Shown: piece after piece, positions 5,061-29,656 of the stretch
Layout: each line of letters begins with the position of its first letter
Position numbering within the stretch: the stretch's first letter is position 1
NCBI GenBank assembly: GCA_028693965.1
Contig: JAQUUG010000004.1
Coordinates: 1-33,041, forward strand
Source of the DNA: Bacilli bacterium
GTDB lineage: Bacteria; Bacillota_I; Bacilli_A; RF39; UBA660
Direction of reading: 5' to 3'
Length of the DNA stretch: 33,041 nucleotides
The notes under the pieces: generated by a model
Told to the model about the DNA's origin: nothing
Database searches by the model: none
What the model saw: only the letters and a program-made list of their open reading frames with translations
Translations under genes and position numbers: made by a program

Positions 5061-6043
5061 TGAAAAAGATAAGTGTTATTGTTCCTGTATATAATGTTGA
5101 ACAATATTTAGAAAAATGTTTAACAAGTTTAATAAATCAAACTTTAGAAGATATTGAAATTATTATTGTCAATGATGGTAGTCCTGATAATAGTCAGCAA
5201 ATAATTGATAAATATGTTAGTAAATATCCAGATAAGATTAAAAGTTTCATTAAAGAAAATGGTGGTTTATCTGACGCTAGAAATTATGGTATTACTAAGG
5301 CAACAGGAGAATATATTGCTTTTATTGATAGTGATGACTGGGCCGATGTTAAAATGTTTGAAATAATGTATAACAAAGCAATAAGTAATTATTTTGATAT
5401 AGTGGTTTGTAATGTTGAATATGTATATGAAAATGACAGTAAATTAGTAGATTCAAATGTAAAAAAAGACATATATGATAAAAAAGCTATTAAAAAAATA
5501 ATGACAAAAATATATCCAAGTGCTTGGAATAAAATTTATCATAAAAACTTATTTTTAAATAATGTCTTTTTTAAAAAAGGAGTTTGGTTTGAAGATGTTG
5601 AATTTATGTATCGCTTACTACCATACGTTAATAGTATTGGACAAGTTGATGGTTACTTTGTAAAATACTTACAACGCAGTAATTCTATTACCAGTACTTT
5701 TGATAACAGAATATTTAATTATATTGATAATTGGAATGGGATAATTGATTATTATAAGCAAAATGGTTTATATAATGAATATAAGCAAGTCTTAGAATAT
5801 TCATATGTTAGGTATTTATATGCTACTTTTATTAAAAGTGCCCTTAAATTCAAAAATAAAAAGTTTTATCAAGAAGCAGTGGAACAAGCTATTTTAAATG
5901 TCAAAAGAAATTTTTCTCATTATTATTATAATACATATTTTTATACCTCTGGTTTGAAAGGTATATATTTACTATTATTCTCTAAAAGTTTTTCTAAGTT
6001 ACTATGGATAGTAAGTAACAAGCAAAGGAAGGGTGATTTATGA
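5060..6043 (+). CDS. Family 2 glycosyltransferase
   Basis: ISVIVPVYNVEQYLEKCLTSLINQTLEDIEIIIVNDGSPDNS and FIDSDDW. Start codon overlaps the preceding stop (TAATG). Confidence 0.92.
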   Translation: MKKISVIVPVYNVEQYLEKCLTSLINQTLEDIEIIIVNDGSPDNSQQIIDKYVSKYPDKIKSFIKENGGLSDARNYGITKATGEYIAFIDSDDWADVKMFEIMYNKAISNYFDIVVCNVEYVYENDSKLVDSNVKKDIYDKKAIKKIMTKIYPSAWNKIYHKNLFLNNVFFKKGVWFEDVEFMYRLLPYVNSIGQVDGYFVKYLQRSNSITSTFDNRIFNYIDNWNGIIDYYKQNGLYNEYKQVLEYSYVRYLYATFIKSALKFKNKKFYQEAVEQAILNVKRNFSHYYYNTYFYTSGLKGIYLLLFSKSFSKLLWIVSNKQRKGDL

Positions 6044-7884
6044 TGACCAAACTTAAAAAAATACTAAAAAATCACAGTTTTACTTTTTGGACTTTAAATC
6101 TCTATTTATTATTACTGATTATTGTTCCTAAAGATTTATCAACAATATTAAATGTTATTCCCATACGGTTAGTTTTATCAGGATTATTTTTAACTGTATT
6201 TATAATTGATTTATATTTAAAAAATATCAGTTTAAATAAAGTATCAATTAAATGGTTAGTGATAATATTTAGTATCTTTTTAATATTTACGATACCATCT
6301 ATCTTTGTTTCTAAAAACATTATAGTTTCATTATATACACTTGTTAAATATTTGATGATATTTTTAATTACAATTGTTGTTTTAAAAATTAATTTGACTA
6401 AAGATGAATACAAAATAATTATTAAAAACATCTTACTAGCAACTTTACTAGTTAGTTTATATGGTGTTTATGAGTATTATTTCAGTTCAAATTTATTTAC
6501 AATTGGTAGTGAAAAGTATCTTGGTTCACGAGGACGAACTACTTCAACTTTTTTTAACACTATCTACTTTGGAATTTATATCAATATTGTCTTTTGTTTT
6601 ATATTGTATTTATTTTTGAAAACCAAAAACAAATTGAAATCATTAATTACATTTATAATATTATCGTTATTATATTTATGTTTAATTTTGACATTTACTA
6701 GATCTTCTTTATTGATATTTTTTGTTTGTTTGGCTATTTTCTTAATATTAACATACTATATGCTTAAAAACATTAAAATAATATTTGTAATATCAATGAT
6801 TATTTTAATATCAACTAGTGTTTCAGGTTCTAAGTCTTTATTTAATGATTCATTTAGTGATGGTTTTACAATTATTAGCAATTTTGATATTTTAAAAAGT
6901 TTTATTCCTTCTACAGGTAGTAATAATAATGGTGATGAAGTTGATGATGAAACTGATTTTGATGATGATTCACTTAATCATAGACAAGAATTTGCGATCA
7001 TTGCTAAAAAGATTGGTAATGATAATGCCCCTTTTGGAATCGGTTTTGGAGCGTATATTGATTATATGAATTCATCTGATTTTGATAATACATATCCTGA
7101 ATTTACTTTGACAAAAACGCATCCTCATTCAACATTTACATTAATGTATGCGGAAGTAGGAATTGTATCTACGCTTACTTTGGGACTATTTTATATTGGT
7201 ATATTATTTGCATATTTTAAAAATATTGTTCGAAACTTTGCTCGTAAAGATAGTGTTTATGCATTATCAGTTGTTGGTTTCGTTAACTCAATTGGTTTTT
7301 TTGCTGTTAATTTACTTGCTGAAAATGCCACATATGATACACAAATTTTTCCAATATTTATAATATTAAATGCACTACTATTATCATACATAAGAATAGA
7401 TATTGAAAAGCAAGATAAAAAAATATTATTCATCTCAAGTACTGGTGGTCATTTATCAGAAATGTTGCAACTTAAATCTTTATTTGATAAATATGATTAT
7501 TTCCTTGTTACAGAAAAAACAAAATCAAATTTGAAACTTCGTGAAACTTATAAAGAAAAAGTTGATTATATTCCCTTTGGTAGTAAACTTCATCCTTTTA
7601 TTTATATTTTTAAATTAATATTTAATTGTTTTAAATCTTTATTCATTTATATTAAATTTGGACCTGACTATATAATAACAACAGGAGCTCATACCGCTGG
7701 ACCAATGTGCTGTATTGGTAAAATATTTGGTAGCAAAATTATTTTTATTGAATCATTTGCTAATATAAACACTAAAACAGTAACGGGCAGGATTATTTAT
7801 CATTTTGCTGATTTATTTATTGTACAGTGGGAGGATATGCTTAAAGTTTATCCTAAAGCTACATATGGGGGGTGGATATATTGA
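6040..7884 (+). CDS. Fusion protein: N-terminal O-antigen ligase/polymerase (Wzy-like) plus C-terminal Alg14/PssD/CpsF-like glycosyltransferase subunit
   Basis: About 440 aa of transmembrane sequence with a polymerase-like region (RTTSTFFNTIYFGIYINIVF, THPHSTFTLMYAEVGIV), then KKILFISSTGGHLSEMLQLKSLF...PDYIITTGAHTAGPMCCIGK, the Alg14/PssD signature. One uninterrupted frame. Confidence 0.88.
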   Translation: MMTKLKKILKNHSFTFWTLNLYLLLLIIVPKDLSTILNVIPIRLVLSGLFLTVFIIDLYLKNISLNKVSIKWLVIIFSIFLIFTIPSIFVSKNIIVSLYTLVKYLMIFLITIVVLKINLTKDEYKIIIKNILLATLLVSLYGVYEYYFSSNLFTIGSEKYLGSRGRTTSTFFNTIYFGIYINIVFCFILYLFLKTKNKLKSLITFIILSLLYLCLILTFTRSSLLIFFVCLAIFLILTYYMLKNIKIIFVISMIILISTSVSGSKSLFNDSFSDGFTIISNFDILKSFIPSTGSNNNGDEVDDETDFDDDSLNHRQEFAIIAKKIGNDNAPFGIGFGAYIDYMNSSDFDNTYPEFTLTKTHPHSTFTLMYAEVGIVSTLTLGLFYIGILFAYFKNIVRNFARKDSVYALSVVGFVNSIGFFAVNLLAENATYDTQIFPIFIILNALLLSYIRIDIEKQDKKILFISSTGGHLSEMLQLKSLFDKYDYFLVTEKTKSNLKLRETYKEKVDYIPFGSKLHPFIYIFKLIFNCFKSLFIYIKFGPDYIITTGAHTAGPMCCIGKIFGSKIIFIESFANINTKTVTGRIIYHFADLFIVQWEDMLKVYPKATYGGWIY

Positions 7885-8372
7885 TTTTAATACTATTAGG
7901 AACGCAAGATAAACAGTTCGTTAGAATTTTACATGAAGTTGATCAATTGATTATTAATAAAGTAATCACAGAAGAAGTAGTAGCGCAAGTTGGTAATACA
8001 AAATATGTATCAAAAAATATGAAATTACTTGATTTTATACCATATGATGAAATGCAAGCTTTGATAGCTAAAGCTGACTTAGTTATAACGCATGGCGGGG
8101 TTGCTTCAATTGTTGATAGTATAAAGTTAAATAAAAAAATTATAGCTGTTCCACGTCTTGAAAAATATGGTGAGCATGTTAATGATCATCAAATCCAAAT
8201 AGTTGAAAAAATGGCTGCTAACAACTACTTAATACCACTATATGATGGTGATTCGTTGGAAAAAGCTCTTGAAAAATCTAAAAGATTTACAAACAAGCCA
8301 TTTACTAGTAATAATTATCATATGTTAGAAATAATTGAAGATTTTATTACCAATAGTAATAAAAATTGTTAA
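7881..8372 (+). CDS. Alg13/PssE/CpsG-like glycosyltransferase family 28 C-terminal domain protein
   Basis: MILILLGTQDKQFVRILHEVD...DLVITHGGVASIVDSIKLNKKIIAVPRLEKYGEHVNDHQ. TTG start at 7881 overlaps the upstream stop (TTGA); SD-like ggggggtg upstream. GTG 7872 is the alternative start. Confidence 0.85.
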   Translation: MILILLGTQDKQFVRILHEVDQLIINKVITEEVVAQVGNTKYVSKNMKLLDFIPYDEMQALIAKADLVITHGGVASIVDSIKLNKKIIAVPRLEKYGEHVNDHQIQIVEKMAANNYLIPLYDGDSLEKALEKSKRFTNKPFTSNNYHMLEIIEDFITNSNKNC

Positions 8373-10810: not shown

Positions 10811-12694
10811 ATGAAAGAAAAAATTAATAACCTAATATCTAATTTATCTAGCATATTAAAAGATTTGTTTATTAAATATTATGGTTTTATATTTATATTT
10901 ATATTTATATTAATCATTGATTGGTATACTTATAATCTAGTTAGCAGTGTTAGTATAAGTAACAGTGGTAAACTTTCTTCATTTTTATTTACTCTTAGTT
11001 ATGTGGAATTATTTATCGCATTCTTATTACTTTTTTCAAAAAAATTAAGAAAAGTAATTTTACTTACAGCATCATTATTAATTACGATTATGTTTGTAGT
11101 CAATACTATTTATTTTAGTATGTTTGGGACTTTCTTTAGTTTTAATAATTTAGTTTTAGCAGGTGAAGGTTCAGGTTATTTTTTAACGGTCATAAATGCC
11201 TTAGATTTTAAACTAATTACTATTTTTGCATCTTTGTTAGTCATGATTGTTTTATCTTTTAAATATATGCCTAAACAAAGATATAAATCTGATATGACAT
11301 TTGCTATAATCTTACTGATTCTTGGTCTTTTCTCTAGAGGAAGTGCTCTAGTAAGCTTAGGGGACTCAGTTGATCCACTAGCGTGGAATGCCTGGTCACA
11401 TAAAAAAAATATCTATGATTCATATACTGATACTAAGAAAAGTATGAAATTATCAGGTTTTTATGAATATGTTCTTCGTGATTTATATTTGACTAGTACT
11501 ACTAAGAATATAGATGTTAAAGAATCGGTTACTTATTTAAATAATTACTTTACACCCAATGAAATTACAACTGATAGCAGTTATGAAGGTGTTTTTAAAG
11601 ATAAAAATGTCATTGTTGTCATGATGGAAACAATAGATTCATGGTTAGTAACAGAAGAAAATATGCCAACTGTTTATAAGTTAATGAATAGTGGTATTAA
11701 TTTTACTAATCACTTTTCGGTAATATACGGTGGGGGAGCTACTTTTAACAGTGAGTTCATGATTAATACTGGTTATATGACACCGTTTAATAGTCAGTTA
11801 GCAGCATATTCGTTTACCGAAAATGATTATGCTCAGTCTTTAGCTAACTTGTTTAAAAATGCTGGTTATAGTGCAAATAACATTCACTTTAATTATGGTA
11901 CTTATTATAATCGTGCTGATATGACGGAATCTTTTGGCTATGATGATTATATTAGTGCTTTAGAAATGGGATATGGAAATGAATCTAAATTAGATTCGTT
12001 TGTTATGACTGATGAAACCCTTCGCAATTTATTTTTACCTGATGGTAAGTTTATGACATATTACACCACTTATTCTGGTCATATGCCATATAACTATGAT
12101 GAATATTTATGTAGTACTATTGCTACTAAGTTTGGTGTAAGTGAAGAAGAAATAATGGCAGATGAAAACCTTAATTGTATAACTGTTCAAGCTAAAGAAA
12201 CGGATAATTTCTTTGAACTTTTACTTGAAAACTTAGAAGAAAAAGGTATTTTAGATGATACTGTTATTATTGGTATTACTGATCATTACGCTTATACTTT
12301 TAATGATCAAGAATATGTTTATGATATTAAAGGTGTTACTGATGAAAATATGATTCACAATGTTCCTTTCTTTATTTGGAGCAGTGATATTGAAAGCATG
12401 GAAATAGATGAAGTTAATTCTAATTTGGATGTTCTTCCAACTATTGCTAGTTTATTTGGACTTGATTATAATCCTACTTATTATTTAGGCAGTAATATTT
12501 TATCAGATACTTATTCACCATTTGTTTTCTTTAGTGATTATTCATGGTATGACGGTAATGTTTATTATAAAGATGGTTCGGTTGTTTTTGGAAATGCAAG
12601 TCAAGAATTAATTGAAGCTAATAGTGCGAAGGTTAATAGTATTTTAGATATTAATACTAAAGTTCTTGAAACTAATTATTTTGCTAATAAATAA
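10811..12694 (+). CDS. LtaS-like sulfatase-fold membrane protein (phosphoglycerol transferase family)
   Basis: N-terminal TM bundle, then VIVVMMETIDSWLVTEENMPTVYKLMNSG, GGGATFNSEF (nucleophile Thr region), YSGHMPY, GITDHYAYTF, VPFFIWS. ATG 10811 after SD gggagtg; the ORF-track start at 10763 is over-extended. Confidence 0.85.
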   Translation: MKEKINNLISNLSSILKDLFIKYYGFIFIFIFILIIDWYTYNLVSSVSISNSGKLSSFLFTLSYVELFIAFLLLFSKKLRKVILLTASLLITIMFVVNTIYFSMFGTFFSFNNLVLAGEGSGYFLTVINALDFKLITIFASLLVMIVLSFKYMPKQRYKSDMTFAIILLILGLFSRGSALVSLGDSVDPLAWNAWSHKKNIYDSYTDTKKSMKLSGFYEYVLRDLYLTSTTKNIDVKESVTYLNNYFTPNEITTDSSYEGVFKDKNVIVVMMETIDSWLVTEENMPTVYKLMNSGINFTNHFSVIYGGGATFNSEFMINTGYMTPFNSQLAAYSFTENDYAQSLANLFKNAGYSANNIHFNYGTYYNRADMTESFGYDDYISALEMGYGNESKLDSFVMTDETLRNLFLPDGKFMTYYTTYSGHMPYNYDEYLCSTIATKFGVSEEEIMADENLNCITVQAKETDNFFELLLENLEEKGILDDTVIIGITDHYAYTFNDQEYVYDIKGVTDENMIHNVPFFIWSSDIESMEIDEVNSNLDVLPTIASLFGLDYNPTYYLGSNILSDTYSPFVFFSDYSWYDGNVYYKDGSVVFGNASQELIEANSAKVNSILDINTKVLETNYFANK

Positions 12695-12711
12695 TATTGG
12701 AGGTGTGATAT

Positions 12712-14487
12712 ATGAGTTCTAATACTGGTTATCTTAGTATTGATAATAGACATAATGATAACAAAAACTATTTTCAAAGAAATCCTATTATTCCTAATAT
12801 GAGTGTATATAATATAATAGGAATGATTAGTTCTTTATATAGTGATTCTTTTGCTATTGATTGTTTAGATTTAAGAGTTACTTATCAAGAATTAATTGCT
12901 TCAGCAAATGTTTTAGCACGCTCTTACAAAGAATTAGGAATTAAAAAAGGTGACATTATTGTAGCATCTATGCCTAATTTTTTTCAAGCCTTAGCAGTTT
13001 ATCTTGGTGCAAATAAGATTGGAGCTGTAACGTCATTTTTAAACCCAGGTTGCTCAAAAGAAGAAATAAAATATTATTTAAATGAGTTTGGTTCACCACT
13101 TTATATTAATTATGATCAATCAATTGAATATAATAGTGAAATAAAAAGAGATACTAAAGTCAAACAAACAATAACTTTACATAAAAAAGATATTAATATT
13201 AAAACTTTTAATGACGTAAAAAAAGGTGATATTGGTTATAATGATTATTTATCTTTTAATGATATGAAGTTAGTTGCTGATTATTATAAAGGTTTCATCA
13301 ATCCATATCAAAGTAGTAGCAATGATGCTTTAATATTGTTTACTAGTGGATCATCTGGTCAACCTAAGTCAGTTGTTTTAACTAATAAGAATATTATAGC
13401 ATCAGGAATATATATGAAGAATACTGGTAATATTGTAACTAAGCATGGTGAAAAGTGTTTGATTTGTGTCCCATTTTCATATCCATATGGTCTTGTAACT
13501 TCTACTATTATGACATTACTTAGTGGAAGAGAAGCCATTTTGGCTCCCAATATGAATATGAATAATGTTAATTATTTTTTAAGGAAAAATCCTAACTATG
13601 TCTTTGGTAGCCCTGCTATTTTAGAACTTTTTGTTAGAGCTATTGAAGAATCTTTAGACTTATCATCTTTACAATACTTTATTTCAGGTGGTGATTTTTT
13701 AAGCCCGGCTAAAGTGAGAAATGGGATTGAAATTTTTAGAAAACATAATTCGATGGCCAATATATATATTGGTTCTGGAAATGCTGAAACTGCTGGAGCT
13801 TCTACCATTGCGATTGGTTCACCTGTTAAAATTGATACAGTTGGTAGAATTTTAACAGGTAGTAGAGCTGTTATGTTGGCTTTAGATAAGAATGGTAAAA
13901 TAAAAAAACCATATACTGAAGTTAAATATAATGAAGAGGGTTCTCTTTGTATTTCTGGAGATCATGTTTTTAAAAAATATTATAATGACAAAGAATTAAC
14001 TTCGGAAAACAAACTAATATATAATGGAAGAGAATATTTAATTACTGGTGCTGTTGGGACGGTAGATGATAAAGGATATTTTTACATGACGGGAAGGGCA
14101 TCAAGGTTTTATATAAAGGCTGATTCCAATAAAGTATATTTAGAACATCTACAAAGAATATTAAGTTATATTGATGTAGTTGATGATTGTGTAGCGGTTC
14201 CAATACCTAATGATGAAGAGCTTTTTCAAACTAAAGTTTTTATAAAATTAAAACAAGGTATTGAACCATCTGAACAAATTAAAAAATATCTTATCTATCA
14301 AATGCAACAACCATTTGATACTAAAGATAAAATAGCGCCTCTTAAAACATTTGAAATCCCATCTAGTATTGAATTTGTTGATACTATGAAAAGAATTATA
14401 GATTCTGAAAAAATAGATTATCGTTATTATGAAAAACTAGCCATGGAAGAATATGAAGTTCAAAAAAATAATTCTAGAACAAAATAA
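12712..14487 (+). CDS. Adenylate-forming enzyme (acyl-CoA synthetase/AMP-ligase superfamily), divergent
   Basis: LILFTSGSSGQPKSVVLTNKN (P-loop-like A3 motif); weaker A8 region ITGAVGTVDDKGYFYMTGRASRF; C-terminal MKRIIDSEKIDYR. SD ggaggtg upstream. Confidence 0.85.
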   Translation: MSSNTGYLSIDNRHNDNKNYFQRNPIIPNMSVYNIIGMISSLYSDSFAIDCLDLRVTYQELIASANVLARSYKELGIKKGDIIVASMPNFFQALAVYLGANKIGAVTSFLNPGCSKEEIKYYLNEFGSPLYINYDQSIEYNSEIKRDTKVKQTITLHKKDINIKTFNDVKKGDIGYNDYLSFNDMKLVADYYKGFINPYQSSSNDALILFTSGSSGQPKSVVLTNKNIIASGIYMKNTGNIVTKHGEKCLICVPFSYPYGLVTSTIMTLLSGREAILAPNMNMNNVNYFLRKNPNYVFGSPAILELFVRAIEESLDLSSLQYFISGGDFLSPAKVRNGIEIFRKHNSMANIYIGSGNAETAGASTIAIGSPVKIDTVGRILTGSRAVMLALDKNGKIKKPYTEVKYNEEGSLCISGDHVFKKYYNDKELTSENKLIYNGREYLITGAVGTVDDKGYFYMTGRASRFYIKADSNKVYLEHLQRILSYIDVVDDCVAVPIPNDEELFQTKVFIKLKQGIEPSEQIKKYLIYQMQQPFDTKDKIAPLKTFEIPSSIEFVDTMKRIIDSEKIDYRYYEKLAMEEYEVQKNNSRTK

Positions 14488-14496
14488 AATATTGTT

Positions 14497-14529
14497 AAAA
14501 GTGTTTTTAAAAAATATGAACACTTTTTT
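14497..14529 (+). terminator. Rho-independent terminator after the AMP-ligase gene
   Basis: AAAAGTGTT / AACACTTTT inverted repeat followed by a T-run. Confidence 0.7.
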
Positions 14530-14530
14530 G

Positions 14531-14539
14531 TGTTATAAT
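14531..14539 (+). promoter_or_regulatory. Extended -10 promoter for the histidine kinase gene
   Basis: TGTTATAAT immediately after the terminator T-run. Confidence 0.45.
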
Positions 14540-14562
14540 AATAAAGAAGGCGAGATGTAAAA

Positions 14563-16443
14563 ATGACTAGCGGTATTTATTTTCCTTTGTGTTGTCTTTT
14601 TTTTAGTATCCAATTTATGCTTGTTTATTTTTCTAAAAAACGAGTTAACAATATTGAAAATAAGATATATAAAGTAATGATTATTTCTAATTTTATTGGA
14701 TTAATTATTGAAATTATGTGCTTTTACTATATTAGAAACATAGTCCCTATCATTAGTAATATAATTCTTCGATCATATTTAATTTATCTTTGTTTTTTTA
14801 TAGGGGTTTTTACAAATTATATATCAGTTATTACATATAAAGCTAAACATGTTGATAAAGATATATATAAATTCTTTAAACTCATTGCTACTATTACTAC
14901 ATTACTGATAATATTTGAAATAATATTAATATTTATTTTACCAATGAAAATATATAACAATAATAATGTTGTTGCATATACATATGGTCCTGCGGTGCAG
15001 TTTGTGTATGTTGTAGCAGGTATATCAATTGCTATTTGGTTTTTTAACTTAGCTATTAATTTTAATAATATTAAAGATAAAAAATATTTACCGGTATTTA
15101 TTTTCTTGTTCATTGGAGCTATTGCATCAGTAGTTCAGTATTTTTGGCCTGCAATATTATTAATGACATCAATGGAAACGTTAGTTTGTTCATTAATGTT
15201 TCATACTATTGAAAATCCTGATTTGAAAATGATAGAAAAATTGGAATTAGCAAAAAATGTTGCTGAAAAAGCTAATCAAGCTAAAAGTGATTTTTTAAGT
15301 AGTATGAGTCATGAAATAAGAACTCCATTAAATGCGATAGTTGGTTTATCTGAAGATATTGCTACATATAAAGATAAAGTACCAAAAGAAGTTGTTGAAG
15401 ATACTGAAGATATTTTAAATGCTTCTAATACTTTACTTGAAATAGTTGGTAATATTTTGGATATCAATAAAATTGAAAGTGAAAAAATGGAAATAGTGGA
15501 AAGCCCATATAATTTGCGAGAAACAATTACTAAATTATGTAAAGTAACAACGACAAGGATAGAAAAAAAACCTATTGAATTTAAACTAGATATCGCGCCA
15601 GATATTCCAGATGAACTTATTGGAGATAAAGTCCATATTAAAGAAATTGTTAATAATTTACTTTCTAATGCAATCAAATATACTGATGCTGGAACTATTA
15701 ATTTAAGTGTAAAATGTGTTAATAATATAAATAAAAACACATCTAGAATAATTATTACTTGCCAAGATACTGGAAGAGGTATAAAAGCAGAACAAATAAA
15801 TAAATTATTTACTAAATTTGAACGACTAGACATTGAAAAAAATACTACTACTGAAGGAACAGGACTTGGTCTTGCTATTACCAAATCATTAGTTGAGATG
15901 ATGAATGGGAAAATTAACGTTCAAAGTCAGTTTGGTAAAGGGTCAATATTTATGATACAAATACCTCAAAAAATTAGCAAACTAACAAATATAATGGCAA
16001 AAGAGGAAGTACATGATACTACTAGTAAACTTCATCAGTTATCTAAAGAAACTAATGATATATATCATTATGGTTCCAAAAAGATTTTAATAGTTGATGA
16101 TAATATGTTAAATATCAAAGTTGCTAAAAGAGCTTTATCATCATTTAATTTTGAACTTGATGAGTGTTATGATGGAAAACAATGCTTAGATAAAATTGTT
16201 GATGGTAATGAATATGATCTGATTTTGATGGATATTATGATGCCTAATATGAGTGGTGAAACAGCTTTTAAAAAATTAAAAGAAAATCCAAGGTTTAATA
16301 TACCTACTATTGCATTAACGGCTGATGCAGTAGCTGATTCAAAAGAAAAGTATATTAATGAAGGATTTACCGATTATATTGCTAAACCATTTAGCAGAGA
16401 TCAAATTAAAGAAAAACTAGATTTAGTTTTTAATAATAATTAA
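14563..16443 (+). CDS. Membrane hybrid sensor histidine kinase (HisKA, HATPase, REC)
   Basis: Several N-terminal TM helices; H-box [20 protein letters not shown] boxes [26 protein letters not shown]; receiver [16 protein letters not shown]...[13 protein letters not shown]...IALTAD...YIAKPF. Confidence 0.95.
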
Positions 16444-24535: not shown

Positions 24536-25648
24536 ATGAAAAAAATTGAAATAGTTACTTTTCATTTAGCTAATAATTATGGAGCAGTGCTGCAAGCTTA
24601 TGCCCTACAATCAATATTAGATAAAAAGTATAATGCTGAAATATTAAATTATGATAATAAATTTATTTCAAATAATTATAAAGTATTTAAATCAATAAAT
24701 GTTAATCCAATAAAAACAATATACCATTTTGCTAATGATATAATTAATTATAAAAAAGAAAGTACAAAGGTTAAATTATTTAATGAATTTAGAAAAAATA
24801 AGTTTAAATTATCTCCTTATTTTGATAATTATAATAATGCAATAATTCCAATAGCTGATGTATATATTGTAGGTAGTGATCAAGTATGGAATCCATTTTT
24901 AACAAATGGTATAGATAAAGTTTATTTATTGAATTGTATTTCTGGCTCAAAGAAAATATCATATGCTGCAAGTAGTGGCAATTTAGAATATATCAAAAAT
25001 AATAAAGAAGAATTTTTTGATAAACTAAAATCTTTTGATTTCATTTCTGTTCGAGAAGAAAAATTAAAGAGATATATCATTGAAAATGGTGTTGAACCTG
25101 TGGATGTTGTTTTAGATCCAACTCTGTTGCTAACAAAAAATATGTGGATTAATTTTTTAGATAAAGAGAGGATAGAAAAAGAAAAATATATATTTGTTTA
25201 TAGTGTAAATAATTCAAACAAATTGTTTATCAATTTTGTAAATAAATTTGCCAATGAAAAAAAAATAAAAATTGTATATTTTGACAAACATGATTTGAAT
25301 AATAATTACAAATGTGATAAAAAATCATATTATTCAACGGGACCAAAAGAATTTGTAAATCTTTTATATTATTCTGATTATGTTATTACTACAAGTTTCC
25401 ATGGTACTGCTTTAGCATGTATTTTTAATAAGAACTTTTATGTTGTATTATCAACATTTCAAGACAGATTAACAACTATTCTAAATACTTTAAAATTAAA
25501 TAATCGGATTATTACAAATATGTCTGAATATGAATGTGCTATTAATGATAATATTGATTGGCAAAAAGTTAATTTATTATTGGATATAGCAAGAAACAAA
25601 TCATTAAATTGGTTATACAATTCGATAGAAAGTGGTAAAAATGAGTAG
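24536..25648 (+). CDS. Polysaccharide pyruvyl transferase family protein
   Basis: IEIVTFHLANNYGAVLQAYALQ, YIVGSDQVWNPFL, ISYAASSGN, YVITTSFHGTALACIFNKNFYVV. Confidence 0.92.
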   Translation: MKKIEIVTFHLANNYGAVLQAYALQSILDKKYNAEILNYDNKFISNNYKVFKSINVNPIKTIYHFANDIINYKKESTKVKLFNEFRKNKFKLSPYFDNYNNAIIPIADVYIVGSDQVWNPFLTNGIDKVYLLNCISGSKKISYAASSGNLEYIKNNKEEFFDKLKSFDFISVREEKLKRYIIENGVEPVDVVLDPTLLLTKNMWINFLDKERIEKEKYIFVYSVNNSNKLFINFVNKFANEKKIKIVYFDKHDLNNNYKCDKKSYYSTGPKEFVNLLYYSDYVITTSFHGTALACIFNKNFYVVLSTFQDRLTTILNTLKLNNRIITNMSEYECAINDNIDWQKVNLLLDIARNKSLNWLYNSIESGKNE

Positions 25649-27050
25649 AAGTAGAGATTTAGCTAAGAATACTATAATAATTTTTATTGGAATAATATGT
25701 ACTAAATTGCTGTCATTTTTATTACTACCATTGTATACTAGTGTTTTATCTACTACAGAATATGGAATTGCGGATTTATTAACAACACTTATTTCTATGT
25801 TATCTCCTATAATTAGTTTACAAATAAGTCAGGGATTATTTAGAAATTTAGTTGAATGCCGAGATGATTGTAACGAACAAAAGAGCTTGATTTCTACAAG
25901 TATCATATTTATTATTATCAATTCTACAGTTTATTATATATTGTTTTTAATGATAAATCCTTTGATTAAAAATGATTATAAGTGGTTTTTATCAATTACA
26001 ATAATTGCAAGTATATTTTCCGACTTATTATTACAAATATCAAGGGGTTTAGGAAAAAACAATTATTATTCTATAGCAGGGGTAATAACAGCAATTTTTA
26101 CAATTTTTTATAATGTATTGTTTTTAGTCTTTTTACATTATAAAGTAAACGGGTTGTTATTGGGAACATTAATATGATATATAAGTGGTATTATTTATAT
26201 ATTTGTTAAATTAGAGCTCTATAAGCTAATTAATATAAAGTATTTTGATCAAAAATATTTAAAAAAATTAATGAAATATTCTTTACCACTAGTACCTAAT
26301 GCACTATCATGGTGGGTGTTTAATACTTCTGATAGGGTGATTGTGTCTGTTTTTCTTGGATTATCATTTACAGGAATATTATCAGTTTCATATAAATTTT
26401 CCACTATAATTGTTTTATTATATAATATTTTTGATAAAAGTTGGTGTGAATCTATTATTTTACATATAAAAGACGAAGATATTGTTGAATATTTTAATAA
26501 AATATTTTTAATGATTTTTAACTTGTTTTTATCATTTGGTTTATGCTTATTGGCATTTATGCCTATTTTATTTAATGTTTTGATTAACGATAATTTTGTT
26601 GATTCTTACAATTTGATTCCGATTGTCATAATTGCCTCTATTTTTCAAGTCATAGTTGGATTAGTTAGCGTTGTTTATGCGGCAAATAATGATACCAAAT
26701 CTCTTGCAAATACAGCAATTTGGTCTTCTGTGGTTAATTTAATAATTGATCTTGCTTTGATTAATTACATTGGTGTTTATGCAGCAGCGGTTTCAACACT
26801 TTGCTCTTATCTATTTTTTTCAATATATAGAGCATGGGATGTAAGTAAAAAGTATATACATATTAATTTTAATTTAAAATACTACCTAATCGCAATTATT
26901 ACATTGATTATAGTAATCATTTGTTATTATAGTAATTTGATAATTTTAAAATTATTTGGTATGATTATAGCAATAATTTATTTTTTTGTTTCAAATAAAA
27001 ATGAAATTAAAGTTGTAAAAAAAACAATTAAAAGCAAGATAAAAAAATGA
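25641..27050 (+). pseudogene. Wzx-type flippase interrupted by one in-frame TGA (26175-26177)
   Basis: ORFs 25632-26177 and 26271-27050 are in the same frame. The intervening DNA translates without other stops as ...GLLLGTLI*YISGIIYIFVKLELYKLINIKYFDQKYLKKLMKYSLPLVPNALSWWV..., continuous flippase-like sequence. Confidence 0.82.
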
Positions 27051-27063
27051 AAGGAAGTTATAT

Positions 27064-28800
27064 ATGAATAACTTATACACTGATGAAAAAAATGTTCAAA
27101 TAATAATTTCATTATTAAAATCACATAATATTAGAAAGGTGGTTGCGAGCCCAGGAACAATGAATGTAACATTTATTGGAAGTATTCAAAATGATGATTT
27201 TTTTGAAATATATTCATCTGTTGACGAACGATCAGCAGCGTATATTGCATGTGGTTTAGCAGCTGAAAGTAGAGAACCGGTTGTTATTACTTGTACAGGA
27301 GCAACTGCTTCAAGAAATTATATGTCAGGTCTTACTGAAGCATATTATAGGAAATTACCTATTTTAGCACTTACTGCTACTTCACCGTTGGAAAGAATAG
27401 GTAACAATTTACCGCAAATGATTGATAGAACAAATCAATTAAATGATACTTTTAAAAAATCAATATTTATAGATTTCGTTAGTAGCATTGAGGATGAAAA
27501 TAATTGTATCAATAATGTAAATAATGCATTATTAGAACTAACAAGACATGGGTGTGGTCCTGTTCATTTAAATTATGTTACTTTTGCAAGCAAAAGTTTT
27601 AATGTGAAAAAATTGCCTGTTATAAGGAAAATAGAAAGATATACAATAGAAGATACTTTACCAAAAATTGAAAACAAAAGATTGGGAATATTTGTTGGAA
27701 CGCATAAGAGAATGAGTGATGATTTATTAAATCAAATTGATGAATTCTGCGAAAAATATAATTCAGTTGTCTTATGTGATCAAACTAGTAATTATACTGG
27801 AAAATATGGCATTAGTGCTTCTTTGATAATGCAACAGGATGCATATATTGCACCATGCAACATTTTTGATATTATTATTGATATTGGAGAAATTTCTGGA
27901 TCTTATATTAAATTTAATACCAAATCATCTTGGCGTATCAGTCTGGATGGTGAAATAAGACATAGAAATTATCCTATTAAAAATGTTTTTGAAATGTCAG
28001 AAAGTTACTTTTTTCGTACATATAATAAAATGTGTAGAGGAAGAAGTAGTATGAGTTTATATAAAGAATGGTTAAAAGAAGATAACAATTTTAGAAAAAT
28101 TATTCCTGAATTACCTTTTTCAAATGCTTGGATAGCTCAAAATTTATATAATAAGTTGCCAACTAATTCAAATTTATTTTTAGGAATCTTAAATACACTA
28201 AGAAGTTGGAATTATTGTCCACTATTAAAAGAACAAATTGTATATTGTAATACTGGAGGTTTTGGAATTGATGGTACAATTTCTTCACTATTAGGAGTAT
28301 CACTCGCATCAAAAAACCTATCTTTCTGTATTTGTGGTGATTTAGCATTTTTCTATGATATGAATAGTCTAGGAAATAGACATATAAATAACAAAATGAG
28401 AATTATGGTAATTAATAATGGCAAGGGGATAGAATTTAGAAATTATTCTCATATAGCTTCTCAATTTGGAGAAGATGCTGACAAATATATTGCTGCTGGT
28501 GGCCATTATGGTAATAAATCTATTACATTGATAAAAAATTATTGTGAAAATTTGGGGTTCAAATATTTAACTGCATCAAATAAAAAAGAATTTTATGAGG
28601 TGATTTCGGAATTTACCAATAATTGTACATATGGACAACCAATTTTATTTGAAGTGTTTACAGAAACAGAAAATGAAAGTGATGCATTAAAACAAATTAG
28701 AATTATAAAGAAATCTTTAAAAGGGCAAATAAAAGAAAAGTTAGGCAAAACTTTAAATAATAGAACAAAAGATAAATTAAAAAAAGTTATTGGAAGGTAG
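27064..28800 (+). CDS. MenD-like thiamine-diphosphate-dependent enzyme of unknown substrate
   Basis: SVDERSAAYIACGLA (catalytic Glu region), GFGIDGTISSLLG, GDLAFFYDMNSLGN...VINNGKG (ThDP-binding GD...NN motif). SD aaaggaag upstream. Confidence 0.88.
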   Translation: MNNLYTDEKNVQIIISLLKSHNIRKVVASPGTMNVTFIGSIQNDDFFEIYSSVDERSAAYIACGLAAESREPVVITCTGATASRNYMSGLTEAYYRKLPILALTATSPLERIGNNLPQMIDRTNQLNDTFKKSIFIDFVSSIEDENNCINNVNNALLELTRHGCGPVHLNYVTFASKSFNVKKLPVIRKIERYTIEDTLPKIENKRLGIFVGTHKRMSDDLLNQIDEFCEKYNSVVLCDQTSNYTGKYGISASLIMQQDAYIAPCNIFDIIIDIGEISGSYIKFNTKSSWRISLDGEIRHRNYPIKNVFEMSESYFFRTYNKMCRGRSSMSLYKEWLKEDNNFRKIIPELPFSNAWIAQNLYNKLPTNSNLFLGILNTLRSWNYCPLLKEQIVYCNTGGFGIDGTISSLLGVSLASKNLSFCICGDLAFFYDMNSLGNRHINNKMRIMVINNGKGIEFRNYSHIASQFGEDADKYIAAGGHYGNKSITLIKNYCENLGFKYLTASNKKEFYEVISEFTNNCTYGQPILFEVFTETENESDALKQIRIIKKSLKGQIKEKLGKTLNNRTKDKLKKVIGR

Positions 28801-28804
28801 AAAA

Positions 28805-29656
28805 ATGAGAATAAATGCATATTTAAAAAGAGCCATTAAATATATTTTATATGATTTTAAACAAGATAAAGTTTATGTCAATGTAAGTAATATTGTACCA
28901 AGTAAATTACTGATGGATAAAGTTGTCTTGATAACTGGTGGAAGTGATGGTATAGGTTTATCTATTGCAAAAAAGTTTGTCGAACAAGGAGCAAAAGTTA
29001 TTATATCTGGAAGAAATATTGAAAAATTATTAAAAGCTTGCGACAAGTATGATATTTCTGATTATTTTATTAATGATGTTCAAAATATTAACAAGCATGA
29101 TGAAATGCTGGATTTTGTTTTCGCAAAATATGGGAAAATAGATATTTTAATTAATAATGCTGGAATATCGTTGCATGAAAAAGATTTTTTTGATGTTACT
29201 GAAGAAGAATTTGATAATCAATTTAATACAAATTTTAAAGGTGCATATTTTTTATCACAAAATTACATTAGAAGAATAATTAACAAAAAAAATATTGACG
29301 CAAGTATTATTTTTATAACTTCTGAAAGAGGTAATCAATGTGATTATTTACCATATGGATTAACTAAAGTAGCAATTAATAATTTAATTGAAGGATTGTC
29401 TTGTAGATTTATTAGAAACAATATTAGAGTGAATGGTATCGCCCCAGGTGTTACTGCTTCTTCAATGACAAAAATAAGAGAAACAGATGATTTGTTTGCT
29501 GAAAATTATATTAGTGGAAGAAAATATTCGGCTAATGAAGTATCTGAAATTGCTTTGTTTTTATCAAGCAATTTTTCAAAATGTTTGTCTGGAGAAATAA
29601 TTCATTGCAATAATGGGAACCATTTAAATCCATGGTTTAAACATAGTATTAAATAA
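28805..29656 (+). CDS. Short-chain dehydrogenase/reductase
   Basis: VVLITGGSDGIGLSIAKKFVEQGAKVIISGRN (TGxxxGIG), LINNAGIS, FITSERGN...YGLTK, RVNGIAPGVTASSM. ATG 28805 after SD ggaagg. Confidence 0.94.
   Translation: MRINAYLKRAIKYILYDFKQDKVYVNVSNIVPSKLLMDKVVLITGGSDGIGLSIAKKFVEQGAKVIISGRNIEKLLKACDKYDISDYFINDVQNINKHDEMLDFVFAKYGKIDILINNAGISLHEKDFFDVTEEEFDNQFNTNFKGAYFLSQNYIRRIINKKNIDASIIFITSERGNQCDYLPYGLTKVAINNLIEGLSCRFIRNNIRVNGIAPGVTASSMTKIRETDDLFAENYISGRKYSANEVSEIALFLSSNFSKCLSGEIIHCNNGNHLNPWFKHSIK

Follow-up and report, generated by a model that had tools for sequence, protein, structure and literature searches.

Gene content of the locus

The window (the whole 33,041-nucleotide stretch analyzed here, contig G000:C60 in our set) belongs to a 1.07-Mb source genome and carries polysaccharide biosynthesis genes. 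On its forward strand we found a run of four genes in the order PF04230 gene, Wzx, ThDP-dependent enzyme and SDR. The first (24536..25648) encodes a polysaccharide pyruvyl transferase family protein that scored 114.9 bits against the PF04230 Pfam model (gathering threshold 25.3 bits; E-value 8.7e-33). The third (27064..28800), which has an ATG start and a good RBS, encodes a 578-aa MenD-like ThDP-dependent enzyme, assigned from its ORF, profiles, alignment, tree position and fold search. The fourth (28805..29656) encodes a classical, NADP-type SDR in which the TGxxxGIG motif, the catalytic Ser and the YxxxK motif are all present. The ORF of this SDR opens with a TTG at 28790; the ATG at 28805 has GGAAGG upstream and is very probably the start, giving a protein of 283 aa with a basic N-terminal extension of ∼35 aa.

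The second gene of the run, for a Wzx-type flippase (25632..27050), is broken by an in-frame TGA (26175-26177) into ORFs at 25632-26177 and 26271-27050. Table 4 recoding of TGA was discarded as the cause of the split since TGA terminates seven of the 29 window genes and is an ordinary stop codon in this genome; the flippase is thus interrupted in the assembly. This premature stop may mean that the window copy of the cluster is inactive, or it may be an assembly variant. That the genes persist in this genome as a decayed, nonfunctional remnant is very unlikely. The flippase stop would fit such decay, as would the fragmentary ThDP copies of two related loci, L045 (6404-9795) and L051 (5106-8666), in each of which an intact gene precedes a second copy split over two frames. 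However, the ThDP and SDR frames of the window are intact, the catalytic residues are conserved, the family is maintained across phyla, and the flippase stop could be a sequencing or strain artifact of a MAG.

A preliminary description of this DNA had named a pyruvyltransferase, Wzx and an NADP-type SDR as the neighbors of the ThDP gene. We found all three, with the amendment that Wzx is split. The same description had put the ThDP/SDR pair at the end of the cluster; the pair instead lies near the end, with VanZ-like, LCP and Wzz/kinase-like genes downstream, as read from ORF translations. Elsewhere in the window, the contig opens with a second PF04230 fragment (1-471) and an FrhB/FdhB-type (F420 hydrogenase beta-like) protein (455-1612), and at 6040-8372 an apparent membrane polymerase-like part fused to an Alg14-like C terminus is followed by an Alg13-like protein, the latter a sequence reading only.

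The ThDP enzyme derives from MenD and has altered substrate sites

The window ThDP protein contains the motifs SPGTM, DERSA, NTGGFGIDG and GD..NN, exactly as described previously for a protein with a MenD core. It matched TPP_enzyme_N (3e-17) and scored 156.8 bits against the NCBIfam menD model TIGR00173, which does not reach the cut-off of 244.2 bits, and acetolactate synthase (AHAS) models gave at most 41 bits. Its closest relatives in the PDB by sequence are MenD proteins, and the top Foldseek matches are all MenD. The AF2 monomer model superposed on MenD with a TM score of only ∼0.5 at 18 Å rmsd, so we treated its domain packing as unreliable and derived no active-site geometry from it.

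We then aligned the protein to E. coli MenD from MG1655. The catalytic Glu and the GD...N cofactor motif are present as E55, D426 and N452 (E. coli E55, D442 and N469), and Q118 is also kept. In contrast, the residues R33, R107, K292, S391 and R413 of E. coli MenD read M33, S107, Y281, L376 and T397 in the window protein. Codon 33 (27160..27162) places Met where MenD has Arg33 of the isochorismate/decarboxylation pocket (PMC2914249, PMC9835592). In the MenD of B. subtilis, isochorismate is bound by the counterparts of R33 and R107 (Bs R32 and R106), whose Ala mutants have a Km 40-50-fold higher; the R413 equivalent serves chiefly 2-oxoglutarate, and the R395 equivalent is used for both substrates (PMC2914249). 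In Listeria MenD, the equivalents of S391, R395 and R413 hold the 2-oxoglutarate carboxylate (PMC12312563). At this carboxylate site (Ser391, Arg395 and Arg413) the window protein reads L376, R380 and T397, so that one of three residues is kept, namely Arg at codon 380 (28201..28203), and Arg413 is replaced by Thr at codon 397 (28252..28254).

The preliminary description had proposed the loss of two arginines associated with isochorismate and 2-oxoglutarate handling. Both losses (R33 to M33 and R413 to T397) were borne out, and R107, K292 and S391 extend them. Neither a mere shift of the arginines nor alignment slips can account for these losses: no gaps interrupt the alignment of the motifs on either side, and replacements at these positions recur throughout a 27-member subfamily and in three later loci. 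As substitutions fall on isochorismate and on 2-oxoglutarate residues, both substrate sites are changed. Judged by its sequence, the window ThDP protein is MenD-derived but is not MenD.

The enzyme also differs from MenD at its C terminus, where residues 535-578 (28666..28797) form a lineage-specific basic tail with AF2 helices at 552-575. Past the FEVFT motif, most ThDP enzymes of polysaccharide loci have about 44-50 residues versus 18-28 in MenD. Such a basic tail occurs in almost all members of the family and is lacking in MenD and in a triple-fusion protein from locus L019. A basic extension is likewise present at the N terminus of the classical SDRs. These features would suit enzymes that associate peripherally with the membrane and act on a lipid-linked substrate.

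Distribution and phylogeny of the family

Our searches yielded 38 distinct loci, and three scaffolds from human faeces added later brought the set to 41. The 38 loci come from MAGs of Bacillota, one MAG of Prevotella, another labelled Chloroflexi, and the Ruminococcus albus 7 plasmid pRUMAL01, which carries ThDP, PF04230 and epimerase-type SDR genes. Occurrence is sparse: we found the gene in 11 of the 291 genomes that belong to the window's family and in 14 of 299 from the family of the MAG G428, which is labelled Eubacteriales. The three faecal scaffolds, MT835934.1, MT835729.1 and MT835535.1 (L089-L091), are filed as "Bacteriophage sp."; they carry ordinary capsule genes, with a ThDP enzyme, a reductase and a PF04230 gene in each, and look bacterial. 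A scan of viral contigs with the family alignment recovered no relative.

In our tree, seven reference MenD proteins lie opposite the polysaccharide-locus proteins across a branch with 100/95 support, and the Bacteroidota MenDs are nearest. The window enzyme sits beside MenD and not among AHAS/YerE enzymes, in line with its low AHAS scores. The polysaccharide-locus proteins comprise two sets. Group B (L041, L050-L056 and L071-L073) is a basal grade in which R33 and R107 are retained by most proteins. Group A is a derived clade with 100/99 support; it includes the window protein and has lost R33, R107 and R413, the exception being L017, which has Arg at the R107 column. Group A has lost four of the five basic residues that affect substrate binding in B. 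subtilis MenD by mutagenesis, as well as the Ser of the 2-oxoglutarate site, and has gained the near-invariant residues R84, R122, H214, W382, E457 and H481. By E. coli numbering, E55, D442 and Q118 are present in all 41 proteins, R395 in 40 of 41 and N469 in 38 of 41, with Asp in the other three.

No MenB over its cut-off in carriers of the module

Within the window genome we found no match to MenB or to PF16582 and only a single MenD relative. Likewise, MenB over its cut-off was found in none of the 37 module-bearing genomes, the window genome included, which upholds the earlier statement that menaquinone genes are not visible. The NCBIfam menD cut-off is passed by five basal proteins, L055 (294 bits), L050 (288), L041 (274), L053 (254) and L056 (246). 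Because their genomes are without MenB over cut-off, these five are probably over-annotated as MenD. "MenD" database calls in such capsule loci are thus probably wrong and would mislead predictions of menaquinone synthesis.

The window enzyme is almost certainly not an authentic MenD, a SEPHCHC synthase that came to lie among polysaccharide genes. Such an origin could draw on homology, since MenD is the nearest kin in the tree and shares the fold, the ThDP motifs, the catalytic Glu, R395 and Q118, and on the basal proteins L050 and L055, which retain R33, R107, R395, R413 and S391 and exceed the menD cut-off. The window enzyme, however, reaches 157 of the 244 bits required and lacks R33, R107, R413, K292 and S391; its genome has no other MenD and no MenB, and no MenB over cut-off was found in the 36 other carriers tested. 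Its added basic tail and its place in a polysaccharide locus set it further apart from MenD.

A reductase and a PF04230 protein accompany the ThDP enzyme

In 37 of the 41 loci (34 of 38, and all three later scaffolds), the ThDP gene is fused to a PF04230 gene or has one no more than four genes away. The four exceptions are L016, a ThDP-reductase pair whose nearest PF04230 gene is ∼20 kb away on the same contig; L047, where PF04230 is six genes away on the opposite strand; and L009 (an 11.5-kb contig) and L049 (ThDP gene at a contig edge), which are cut by contig ends. In local profiles, PF04230 was matched by 28 of 207 genes within three positions of the ThDP gene and by three of 267 genes farther away (odds ratio 13.8), a difference whose Fisher p of 3e-8 is indicative only since related loci were counted as independent. 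Wzx was likewise enriched near the ThDP gene; GT2 and GT4 were not enriched in the same comparison. Two loci contain fusions. In L019, a single 1269-aa frame comprises a PF04230 domain (32-294), an epimerase-type (extended) SDR (374-585) and the ThDP enzyme (from 728), and in L056 PF04230 and the ThDP enzyme are fused. On the neighborhood counts and these fusions, we discarded the possibility that PF04230 is a chance neighbor.

Of 38 assessable loci (three were excluded because of contig ends), 32 have a reductase of some type, be it a classical SDR, extended SDR, AKR or Gfo/Idh protein, either fused to the ThDP enzyme or encoded no more than three genes from it. Thirty loci have a classical or extended SDR, L053 has an aldo-keto reductase and L050 a Gfo/Idh protein; in L010, L011, L013, L047, L054 and L056 none lies within three genes. 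The SDR type switches seven times on the tree, with YxxxK kept in both types. A structure model of the extended SDR had low confidence (pLDDT 62) and serves only to identify it as an extended SDR. Since unrelated reductases interchange at one position, what is conserved seems to be that a carbonyl formed by the ThDP enzyme is reduced.

The conserved unit is therefore a trio of MenD-like ThDP enzyme, NAD(P)H reductase and PF04230 protein, of which the PF04230 protein is the most consistent partner. The pairing of the ThDP enzyme with a reductase that had been noted for the window recurs far beyond this genome, and the PF04230 partner, twice fused to the ThDP enzyme, had been missed. The trio is not inherited as one block since gene order varies between loci: the PF04230 gene is mostly upstream of the ThDP gene and is downstream in L015 and the three faecal scaffolds (SDR-ThDP-PF04230 in L089 and L091). 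The PF04230 partners have a median identity of 25% and fall into several subfamilies, compared with 40% for the ThDP enzymes; this greater diversity implies that different subfamilies were recruited, and the reasons for their presence may be unrelated, just as the sugars on which they act may differ.

Proposed function of the trio

PF04230 enzymes pyruvylate saccharides using PEP (PMC6801904, PMC8615578), and the window gene at 24536 belongs to the same family as the ketalpyruvyltransferases CsaB, WcaK and GumL. We did not find PF04230 coupled to a ThDP enzyme and a reductase in the review or open-license literature, and the Klebsiella and B. longum papers checked for TPP or carboxyethyl links proved irrelevant. 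That EPS loci can include a ThDP gene was already known, as Bifidobacterium breve EPS loci encode an uncharacterized TPP-binding PF02776 protein, NRBB50_0526 (PMC6045613); this protein, also from gut-bacterial EPS loci, is likened to ours by description only. The trio is real and conserved, and it probably represents a new form of ThDP chemistry for decorating glycans.

On balance, we favor a cassette in which a neofunctionalized MenD, a reductase and a PF04230 enzyme build or elaborate a nonsugar substituent on a membrane-linked precursor of a surface glycan, a function that we consider rather probable. Weighing against it are the diversity of the PF04230 partners, the six loci in which no reductase lies within three genes, the distance of the nearest PF04230 gene in L016 and the interrupted Wzx of the window. 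For the catalysis, step order, membrane location, donor, acceptor and product of the trio, we infer the following scheme. The ThDP enzyme would decarboxylate a 2-oxo acid and add the acyl anion to an electrophile, the default chemistry given that the ThDP catalytic residues are kept. For group A, the loss of the distal-carboxylate pocket favors pyruvate or another 2-oxo acid without a distal carboxylate as the donor over 2-oxoglutarate, and in the basal L050 and L055, where the pocket is kept, 2-oxoglutarate may still serve. An NADPH-dependent reductase would convert the resulting ketone to a hydroxyl. The PF04230 enzyme, of the PEP-dependent (ketal- or enol-)pyruvyl-transferase type, would supply or cap a pyruvyl group before or after these steps.

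If this assignment is right, a menaquinone enzyme has been recruited into a three-enzyme cassette and has spread with it among the capsule loci of gut Bacillota, and into at least one genome of the Bacteroidota, which would point to an unrecognized surface-glycan decoration in gut bacteria. The family would offer carboligases of MenD fold whose donor and acceptor sites are changed, and the 1269-aa three-domain protein of L019 is a ready-made assay target.

YerE-like carboligases (of yersiniose, erwiniose and caryophyllose, and Pau7 of paulomycose) also combine a ThDP enzyme with an NAD(P)H ketone reductase, and the YerE-like ones are also found in surface-glycan loci. By analogy, the ThDP enzyme could attach an acetyl-type unit to an NDP-4-keto-deoxy-sugar, with the SDR then reducing this unit to a hydroxyalkyl branch and PF04230 acting separately. 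The functional precedent is exact, with YerE and a ketoreductase in O-antigens and Pau7 for paulomycose, and YerE-like lyases are, according to a review, the only decarboxylases known to accept isolated ketones (PMC12247030, PMC4753412). Additionally, the window genome has a CapE-like PF02719 dehydratase (320 bits) on another contig, dTDP-sugar genes occur in L018, L015 and L043, and extended SDRs are often NDP-sugar enzymes. Nevertheless, YerE is AHAS-like and acts on CDP-4-keto-3,6-dideoxy-glucose, whereas the window enzyme is of MenD lineage with PF04230 as its steady partner, in a cluster whose only NDP-sugar gene is GalE. Moreover, G1298, a single 1.26-Mb contig with the order PF04230-Wzx-ThDP-SDR, has no PF16363 or PF02719 match, and in its cluster, apart from the trio, we recognized transferases, acyltransferase-type genes, Wzx and a polymerase-like membrane protein, and no NDP-sugar pathway gene. 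As G1298 carries the module with no NDP-sugar 4,6-dehydratase match, a 4-keto-6-deoxy-NDP-sugar acceptor is disfavored. We consider YerE/YerF-type branching unlikely. Such an acceptor is possible in some hosts and is not required by the module. Of the YerE/YerF analogy drawn previously, the logic of a carboligase followed by a carbonyl reductase stands and the NDP-4-keto-sugar acceptor is put in doubt.

Another explanation that seems to us improbable is that the pair makes a soluble small molecule (a hydroxy acid, diol or acyl precursor) that a different enzyme attaches, with PF04230 nearby through shared placement of decoration genes. This would account for L016, where no PF04230 gene adjoins the pair, and for the polyphyly of the PF04230 partners, and acyltransferase genes are common nearby. 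It sits poorly with the two PF04230 fusions, with the basic tails, which suggest a membrane-bound substrate, and with the lack of a consistent activating gene (CoA ligase or nucleotidyltransferase) beside the trio.

Returning to the glycan-linked cassette, a specific form of it that we regard as decidedly speculative is a Stetter reaction. MenD itself carries out a 1,4-addition on isochorismate, an enolpyruvyl ether. Correspondingly, the PF04230 enzyme could furnish a lipid-linked sugar with an enolpyruvyl ether. The MenD-derived enzyme could then join an acyl anion to this enoate by 1,4-addition, and the reductase could reduce the new ketone. Such chemistry agrees with the retention of MenD's acceptor-side arginines in basal members, with PF04230 being fused to the ThDP enzyme in two loci, and with G1298 having no NDP-keto-sugar genes. 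If true, the carbon-extended hydroxy-acid ether would represent a class of polysaccharide substituent that is new, and the enzyme would be the first vitamin-K-type Stetterase to act on surface glycans.

Additional genes near the ThDP enzyme

Several loci have further genes beside the ThDP gene. In L013, directly behind it (11808-14970), lie an NTP-transferase/CTP-transferase/PEP-mutase fusion and a PhnW-like class V aminotransferase, which make up a phosphonate (AEP-type) pathway; no classical phosphonopyruvate decarboxylase was seen near them. L017 has an aminotransferase fusion. A phosphonopyruvate decarboxylase role, hinted at by L013 and L017, was rejected for the family as the window genome has no PEP mutase and most loci have no such genes. 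In L041 (10784-13211) and L004 (3169-5608), a class V aminotransferase and a cytidylyltransferase-Gfo/Idh fusion adjoin LicD genes and perhaps make a CDP-activated amino-alcohol. Lastly, three genes near the ThDP gene that we scanned, L010 6867-7709, L010 11746-12954 and L011 8446-10095, had no Pfam match, and the second of these recurs in L044 (5651-7069) with 59% identity.
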